Shown: piece after piece, positions 1,568 through 3,823 of the stretch | Numbering within the stretch: the first letter of the stretch is position 1 | Layout of the letters: the number at the start of each line of letters is the position of its first letter | Source of the DNA: Patescibacteria group bacterium | GTDB lineage: Bacteria; Patescibacteriota; Patescibacteriia; Patescibacteriales; GWC2-42-12 | Length of the DNA: 33,546 bases | NCBI GenBank assembly: GCA_028707005.1 | Contig: JAQTVB010000012.1 | Coordinates: 1-33,546 of the forward strand | Reading direction: 5' to 3' | The notes under the pieces: model-generated | The model's database searches: none | The model's input: the letters and a program-made list of their open reading frames with translations, nothing else | Told to the model about the DNA's origin: nothing | Translations under genes and position numbers: made by a program

Positions 1568-3358
1568 TTATTCTAAAATAGCTTTAATTCTTCTAACGCC
1601 GGCCGACGAACTTTCCTCTTTTTGGATTTTAAAATGACCCAATTTGCCGGTGTTATCAACATGCGGTCCGCCGCAAATTTCTTTGCTGAAATTTCCCATC
1701 ATATACACTTTTACTCTTTCGCCGTACTTTGATTCAAAAGTGCCATGAGCTTTGAAGGCTTTAGCTTCGGCTAAGCTCATTTCCTGGCAATCAACTATTA
1801 ATTTATCCTTGATCGCTTGATTGACTAAATTTTCCACTTGTTGTTTTTGCTCATCAGTCATTTTTGTCGGATAGGAAAAATCAAACCTTAACCTCTCGGC
1901 GGTAATATTGCTGCCCCGCTGTACAACCTGTTCGCCCAAGACTTTTCTTAAAGCGGCCAAAAGCAGGTGCGCCGCAGTATGCAATTTGGTGGTTTGCGCG
2001 CCGGCATCGGCCAGCCCGCCCTTAAATTGTCCGGCCGAAGCGGTGCGGGAAAGCTGCTGGTGCTTTTTCAGTTCCTGGCAAAACGCCTCAACTTCAACGC
2101 TTAAGCCTTGCTCACGCGCTAATTCTTCGGTGATCTCTAAGGGAAAGCCATAACTTTGATATAAATCAAAGGCTTGTTTGCCGCTGATTTTTTTGCCGCT
2201 TCCCTGCTTAATGATTTTTTCAAACTCTCTTAGGCCTTGTTCTAAAGTTTTATTGAATTTTCCTTCTTCCACGTTCAGCTGTTCAATGACTTTATTAATA
2301 TTACGGCTCAATTCAGGATAAATTGCCTGATAATCATGCGCCACGACTTTGGCGATTTCTTTTGTCCAGGATTCGTTGACAATGCCGATTTGCCGGCCAT
2401 ATCTGATCGCCCGCCTGATCAAGCGCCGTAAAACATAGCCGCGGTCGGTATTGGACGGCGCCACTGCCTTGTCGTCGGCCATGATAAAGGTCGCGGCTTT
2501 GAGATGATCAGCGATAATGCGCAAAGCTTTATCAATCTCCGGAGTTTTGCCGTAAGTCTGGCCGCTTAGCTGGCAAATCCTATTAATGATATTTTTAAAT
2601 AAATCCGTTTGATAATTATCCGCCAAGCCGTTCATGACCGCTAAAATTCTTTCCAGCCCCATGCCGGTGTCAACATTTTTCTTGGCTAACGGCTCAAGCT
2701 TGCCGGCTTTTTTATTATATTGCATGAAAACATTATTCCAGATTTCCACCCATAGAGGATGATCATCATTAAAGCCGGCCGGCACTTTATCCGCGTCGCC
2801 CGCCCAATAAAAAATTTCCGTATCCGGTCCGCAAGGCCCGCCGGTTTCCAAACCCCACCAATTATTTTTTTTCGGCAGCTTGGCAATTCTTTGTTCCGCA
2901 ATGCCAATTTCTTTTTTCCAAATAGCAAAAGATTCTTGGTCAAACGGCGAATCTTGGTCTCCTTGAAAAACGGAAACTGCCAAGCGCTTTTTATCTAAAT
3001 TAAGCCACTCATGATCGGTTAAAAATTCCCAGCTCCAAAGGATTGCTTCTTTTTTAAAATAATCGCCCAGCGACCAATTGCCCAGCATTTCAAAAAAAGT
3101 ATGGTGGGTGCTATCGCCCACTTCCTCAATATCGCCGGTTCTGATGCATTTTTGGCAGTTAGCCAGCCTGGTTCCGGCCGGATGCTTTTCGCCCATTAGA
3201 AAAGGCACTAACGGATGCATGCCAGCGGTGGTGTATAAAATCGTTGGATCATTTTCCGGAATCAAAGAAGCGCTGGAGATTATGGCATGCCCCTTAGTTT
3301 TAAAAAAGTCCAAATATTTTTGGCGCAGTTCTCCGGAAGTCATAAGTAGTTGAATCAT
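1568..3358 (-). CDS. alaS: Alanyl-tRNA synthetase, short form (596 aa); start may be the internal Met of MTSGELRQ
   Basis: TSGELRQKYLDFFKTKGHAIISSASLIPENDPTILYTTAGMHPLVPFLMGEKHP...; editing domain zinc motifs HTAAH and CGGPH present; protein ends shortly after the editing domain. Confidence 0.96.
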   Translation of the reverse strand: MIQLLMTSGELRQKYLDFFKTKGHAIISSASLIPENDPTILYTTAGMHPLVPFLMGEKHPAGTRLANCQKCIRTGDIEEVGDSTHHTFFEMLGNWSLGDYFKKEAILWSWEFLTDHEWLNLDKKRLAVSVFQGDQDSPFDQESFAIWKKEIGIAEQRIAKLPKKNNWWGLETGGPCGPDTEIFYWAGDADKVPAGFNDDHPLWVEIWNNVFMQYNKKAGKLEPLAKKNVDTGMGLERILAVMNGLADNYQTDLFKNIINRICQLSGQTYGKTPEIDKALRIIADHLKAATFIMADDKAVAPSNTDRGYVLRRLIRRAIRYGRQIGIVNESWTKEIAKVVAHDYQAIYPELSRNINKVIEQLNVEEGKFNKTLEQGLREFEKIIKQGSGKKISGKQAFDLYQSYGFPLEITEELAREQGLSVEVEAFCQELKKHQQLSRTASAGQFKGGLADAGAQTTKLHTAAHLLLAALRKVLGEQVVQRGSNITAERLRFDFSYPTKMTDEQKQQVENLVNQAIKDKLIVDCQEMSLAEAKAFKAHGTFESKYGERVKVYMMGNFSKEICGGPHVDNTGKLGHFKIQKEESSSAGVRRIKAILE

Positions 3359-3403: not shown

Positions 3404-3432
3404 AGTATATAAAAAACCTTTAACTTTGGCAA
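3404..3432 (-). promoter_or_regulatory. Sigma70-like promoter for alaS
   Basis: Minus strand TTGCCA (3427-3432) - 17 nt - TATACT (3404-3409), upstream of alaS and downstream of the terminator at 3441-3490. Confidence 0.65.
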
Positions 3433-3440
3433 ATTTGGGT

Positions 3441-3490
3441 AAAAAAAGAGACTGCGCGCGGTTTTTTGGCTTGTGCGGCCACGCGCAGTC
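3441..3490 (-). terminator. Intrinsic terminator of the candidate ncRNA
   Basis: Minus strand GACTGCGCG...CGCGCAGTC (9 bp perfect outer stem, inner TGGC/GCCA) followed by TCTTTTTTT. Confidence 0.82.
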
Positions 3491-3788
3491 GTGAAAACGA
3501 GAAAAGAACAACTCGGTTTATAGTCGGCTAGAGAATGACAATTGGGCTAGCCGACTCTTAGCTAGATGCTATCTCGGGCACGGTGTGTGGTTTTCATGTC
3601 GTGTTTAGTGTTGCGGGTGTTGTTGTTTTCTACATAGTTGTGATTCTGCAATTCTTCATTGTTTTGCCCTCTTCCTGCGGCAAAACCTGAAGACACCGTG
3701 GCTGGCGTCCGAGTTAGCCACGGATTTGAGATAAAAATTAGCATTGTTAGCTCAAGTCCGTGGCAAACGTCTTTTTTAAAAGAGCGAT
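3441..3788 (-). ncRNA. Candidate stand-alone structured non-coding RNA, family unknown
   Basis: Intergenic, with its own promoter and terminator. Stems: 3717-3730/3751-3764 (14 bp, one wobble); nested 3573-3577/3709-3713 plus 3579-3586/3693-3700 closing a ~110 nt domain; 3661-3668/3679-3686 (8 bp); 3522-3531/3547-3556 (10 bp perfect); terminal 3450-3458/3482-3490. Confidence 0.7.
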
Positions 3789-3794
3789 ATTGTT

Positions 3795-3823
3795 ATATTT
3801 ACATATCTTAATAATTTTGTCAA
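3795..3823 (-). promoter_or_regulatory. Sigma70-like promoter of the candidate ncRNA
   Basis: Minus strand TTGACA (3818-3823) - 17 nt - AAATAT (3795-3800), with TG just upstream of the -10 (TGTAAATAT). Confidence 0.6.

Follow-up and report, generated by a model that had tools for sequence, protein, structure and literature searches.

A candidate small RNA gene with a conserved 5' hairpin upstream of alaS in one genus of Patescibacteria

We analysed a stretch of 33,546 nucleotides, hereafter the window, from a Patescibacteria group bacterium (GWC2-42-12; assembly GCA_028707005.1, contig JAQTVB010000012.1, positions 1-33,546). Positions 3441-3790 of its minus strand carry a candidate RNA unit composed of a promoter, a 5' hairpin (P1), further stems and a GC-rich terminator. 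We consider it probable, at about 60%, that this unit is an independent functional RNA gene, monocistronic and non-coding, of approximately 340 nt, lying upstream of a separately promoted alaS. As judged by comparison of the loci, its position, its architecture and the base pairing of P1 are conserved in three species, and the best reading of the unit is that of a fast-evolving, genus-level small RNA gene with a fast-evolving middle.

Organisation of the unit

All features described here lie on the minus strand. The unit is preceded by a promoter-like TTGACA-17-AAATAT (3795-3823), the -10 hexamer of which is poor (3/6 matches), and by a 5' leader motif, GCTCTTTTAAA (3775-3785), that is similar in all three species. 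P1 follows as a helix of 16 pairs (3713-3767, arms 3764-3717). The middle domain (3573-3713) is predicted only; in it CTCGG (3713-3709) would pair with CCGAG (3577-3573) and CACGGTGT (3700-3693) with ACACCGTG (3586-3579), enclosing an inner 8-bp hairpin, CTTCA...TGAAG (3654-3692), and an A/C-rich stretch (3653-3587). Sequence and predicted fold then give a perfect 10-bp hairpin formed by AGTCGGCTAG and CTAGCCGACT (3522-3556), and an intrinsic terminator (3441-3490) in which a 12-bp GC-rich stem is followed by TCTTTTTTT, with its run of seven T residues. Downstream of this terminator lie the promoter of alaS, TTGCCA-17-TATACT (3404-3432), and alaS itself (1568-3358), the conserved downstream neighbour, which encodes an alanyl-tRNA synthetase of 596 aa. 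An earlier note on this DNA had described the same promoter, stems and terminator at these minus-strand coordinates, and all of them are present. The unit is single-copy, as a blastn search with the element in its own genome returned the element only, and the extra matches of the covariance model R1 in that genome were at chance level.

Conservation upstream of alaS

As we read the compared loci, synteny is the decisive evidence for the unit. Of the three other species examined in the genus, two (G002 and G003) have a unit arranged in the same way directly upstream of alaS, with a TTGACA promoter followed by P1, by further stems and by a terminator or terminator-like hairpin, after which comes a separate alaS promoter. 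These are the homologues for which the earlier note had proposed a search; both were located through alaS synteny, and the three orthologues do not match each other by sequence search. The promoters upstream of P1 are TTGACA-16-TATAAT in G002 (12/12 matches) and TTGACA-16-TATGAT in G003 (11/12 matches). The leader motif has its counterparts in GGTTCTTTCAAA of G003 and CGTTCTTTAAAT of G002, with YTCTTT-AAA common to all three species, and the equivalent place at the 3' end holds a strong terminator in G002 and a hairpin with a weaker U-tract in G003. The gene on the far side is that of a CAP protein in the window, mnmA in G003 and that of a 220-aa membrane protein in G002; thus only the pair of RNA and alaS has been kept. 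The alaS proteins of the two species are 68-76% identical to that of the window, a distance at which unconstrained spacer would be expected to align no longer. The fourth species of the genus, G001, has another gene at this position beside alaS, and its genome yielded no copy of the unit elsewhere.

Covariation of P1

The three P1 sequences were aligned with MAFFT without structural information. In this alignment the 16-pair helix is 91.7% paired (44/48 cells), with compensatory changes on both sides at six pairs, so that the covariation which the earlier note had asked for is borne out for P1 across the three syntenic units. None of 500 shuffles reached this level of pairing and covariation; with the partner shifted by one column, pairing fell to 50% or less, and every slid register is far worse. 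A model built only from the window's genome and G003 located the P1 of G002 where it was expected and on the expected strand (E = 1e-4 in 9 kb); its score there, 23.6 bits, is significant at the locus and not genome-wide, a chance match of 24.1 bits being present in the window's genome. P1 is a palindrome which both strands fit, and the counts of standard pairs on the two strands (44/48 vs 43/48, from G-U vs A-C cells) do not decide between them. The strand of the unit is taken from the orientation of promoter and terminator. P1 is demonstrably conserved in these three sequences, and is the only part of the unit whose structure has comparative support.

The middle and 3' parts, whose homology beyond P1 is weak, differ in length and in pairing among the three species. 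GTCTTCA...TGAAG of the inner hairpin is common to the window and G003, without covariation, and is not recognisable in G002; at a position comparable to that of the perfect 10-bp hairpin, different hairpins are found in the other species. An alternative closing helix, TAACTCGG (3716-3709) with CCGAGTTG (3516-3509), competes with the long-range domain, and in the three species covariation was found for neither. A middle-domain structure common to all three was sought and not found. The multi-part domain (3713-3573) put forward in the earlier note has gained no comparative support, and the species differ there.

Folding energy was evaluated for the minus strand of 3441-3790 and, as a control, for the 144 intergenic gaps in the window's genome that are 250 bases or longer. 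The segment folds at -107.6 kcal/mol, more stably than its dinucleotide shuffles (z = -5.35), but in energy per base its gap comes only 15th among the 144. Since hairpins abound in the long gaps of this genome, stability by itself is unexceptional and proves little.

Distribution

Relatives were sought by blastn against 98 genomes and with the covariance model R1 against 146. The blastn search with the element returned itself and one 20-base chance match; that with the G003 unit gave short chance matches in the 146 genomes, and that with the G002 unit mostly matches to a nearby REP/MITE repeat. With R1, the three known copies scored 55-65 bits and were matched on their reverse strands as well, P1 being a palindrome; no other match in the 146 genomes exceeded 25 bits. 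Nine weaker R1 matches outside long ORFs were rejected, all of them lying outside any promoter/terminator context. The alaS loci of the GTDB contigs are too distant and gave no credible R1 match; no match was obtained in the viral contigs. The family thus seems, from these searches, to be confined to one genus, in three of the four species examined.

Two other features were observed in the course of these comparisons. Each genome of the genus yields about 15 matches to the REP/MITE-like repeat (GTCATTGCGAGCGACCGAAGGGAGCGCGGCAATC..., approximately 190 bp, L036:3338-3530), and related genera have shorter pieces of it. In G006 (L039), the region upstream of alaS holds a perfect inverted repeat, about 25 bp long and with TATAAT inside it; next come a CTCTTTTATAAAAA motif and a hairpin resembling a terminator, and then the alaS promoter. 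This region is possibly a degenerate relative of the unit.

Alternative explanations

Could the unit encode a small protein? It holds an ORF of 60 codons (3562-3744) and, inside the RNA, an SD-like GGAAGAGG followed by a 9-codon ORF (MKNCRITTM, 3629-3676), the latter not conserved in G002 or G003. When the longest ORFs of the three units were compared, none was conserved; those of G003 (57 aa) and G002 (56 aa) run across stems and show no relationship in either sequence or position. An mRNA is accordingly hardly credible, and the view of the earlier note, that this is a complete minus-strand unit with no convincing protein, holds. Much the same remote chance is given to a divergent housekeeping RNA (SRP RNA, tmRNA, RNase P RNA or 6S RNA) missed by the Rfam models, for which the size of the unit is in the right range. 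None of the 4227 families of Rfam 15 matched the window at the gathering cut-off, 6S RNA included, and at E-values up to 5 only chance microRNA-precursor matches appeared, on the opposite strand. No tRNA or tmRNA match was found in the unit; the genome's true tmRNA is on contig C34 and its true RNase P RNA on contig C22, the window having no RF00010 match. SRP RNA calls for closer consideration, as none was detected in these genomes by two Rfam models (RF00169 and RF01854), and bacterial SRP RNA resembles the unit in being a structured RNA of comparable length. It differs, however, in its domain IV motif, the pattern of which (CAGG...AGCAG) had no match in 21 genomes. Moreover, tblastn and phmmer searches with the E. 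coli K-12 proteins found neither Ffh nor FtsY in the complete assembly, while the control proteins TrmD, S16 and FtsE were found. Loss or absence of SRP has been published for Parcubacteria (PMC4508563), so no SRP RNA is expected here, and identification of the unit as the missing SRP RNA was rejected. A housekeeping RNA would, besides, not be limited to three of 146 genomes. That the unit lacks features of tmRNA, RNase P RNA and SRP RNA agrees with the earlier note.

The position of the unit, on the same strand as an aminoacyl-tRNA synthetase gene and immediately upstream of it in all three species, and its ending in a terminator raise the question of a cis-acting alaS leader or attenuator, T-box-like or with another aptamer, in which the terminator would be the expression platform. 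T-box leaders likewise combine a structured RNA and a terminator upstream of such genes, but Rfam gave no T-box or riboswitch match here, and where a T-box leader would have no independent promoter after its terminator, inspection of the sequence, the only test applied, finds alaS with its own. This promoter lies downstream of the RNA terminator in the window, G002 and G003, and is present also in relatives without the RNA; its form, TTGCCAAA(A/G)TT...TATATACT, varies hardly at all among several genera of the family. In G002 a copy of the REP/MITE-like repeat lies, in addition, between the alaS promoter and alaS, and an alternative antiterminator common to the three species was not seen. Given the separate promoter, the unit is most likely not an alaS leader, and we regard that reading as quite improbable. 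A further explanation holds that P1 is a DNA-level or bystander inverted repeat, such as a protein-binding palindrome or a decayed repeat, set in hairpin-rich spacer with no functional RNA. It is favoured by the strong folding of the genome's long gaps in general, by the fit of P1 to both strands and by the lack of conservation in the middle and 3' parts, and covariation of a hairpin is no proof of transcription. P1 is, however, single-copy, and in every case it is found upstream of alaS, flanked by a TTGACA promoter and by a terminator or a hairpin resembling one; the leader motif that precedes it is shared as well, as is GTCTTCA...TGAAG with G003. We therefore hold a bystander repeat to be unlikely, though it deserves to be taken seriously.

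Proposed function and significance

As an independent RNA gene, the unit would be transcribed from its own sigma-70-type promoter to the intrinsic terminator, as a separate RNA, in which P1 may protect the 5' end or bind a protein. Action in trans could then come from base-pairing by the middle, which is variable and in part unpaired (the A/C-rich stretch at 3653-3587 is an example); alternatively, the RNA could act in trans by binding protein. Under either mode, its place beside alaS would reflect retained gene order and not control of alaS. Action in trans is a tentative proposal, to which we assign somewhat less than an even chance. A screen of the rest of the genome for exact antisense 13-mers gave 34 (4-37 in shuffles), which is no excess, and no target stood out.

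In kind, though not in family, the unit resembles the orphan intergenic structured small RNAs of bacteria in having its own promoter, a 5' hairpin, a variable middle, an intrinsic terminator and a narrow distribution. It differs from them in that none of the 4227 Rfam families matches it, by sequence or by model. Our searches of open-licence papers found no description of the unit, nor of Patescibacteria small RNAs beyond Rfam annotation. The earlier note had inferred a new RNA family; the absence of an Rfam match, the homologues and the covariation of P1 speak for this, while the restriction to one genus and the unsupported middle domain narrow the claim. This leaves a new family that is genuine but narrow, its members RNA genes of an ordinary kind. 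We give an even chance to the unit being the first member of a structured RNA family of Patescibacteria, genus-level in extent, that has a real role in the cell.

The genomes of Patescibacteria are reduced, and a conserved promoter-terminator unit in genomes of approximately 1 Mb would provide an entry point to their RNA regulation. The unit also illustrates that synteny can reveal fast-evolving RNAs which are invisible to blastn.
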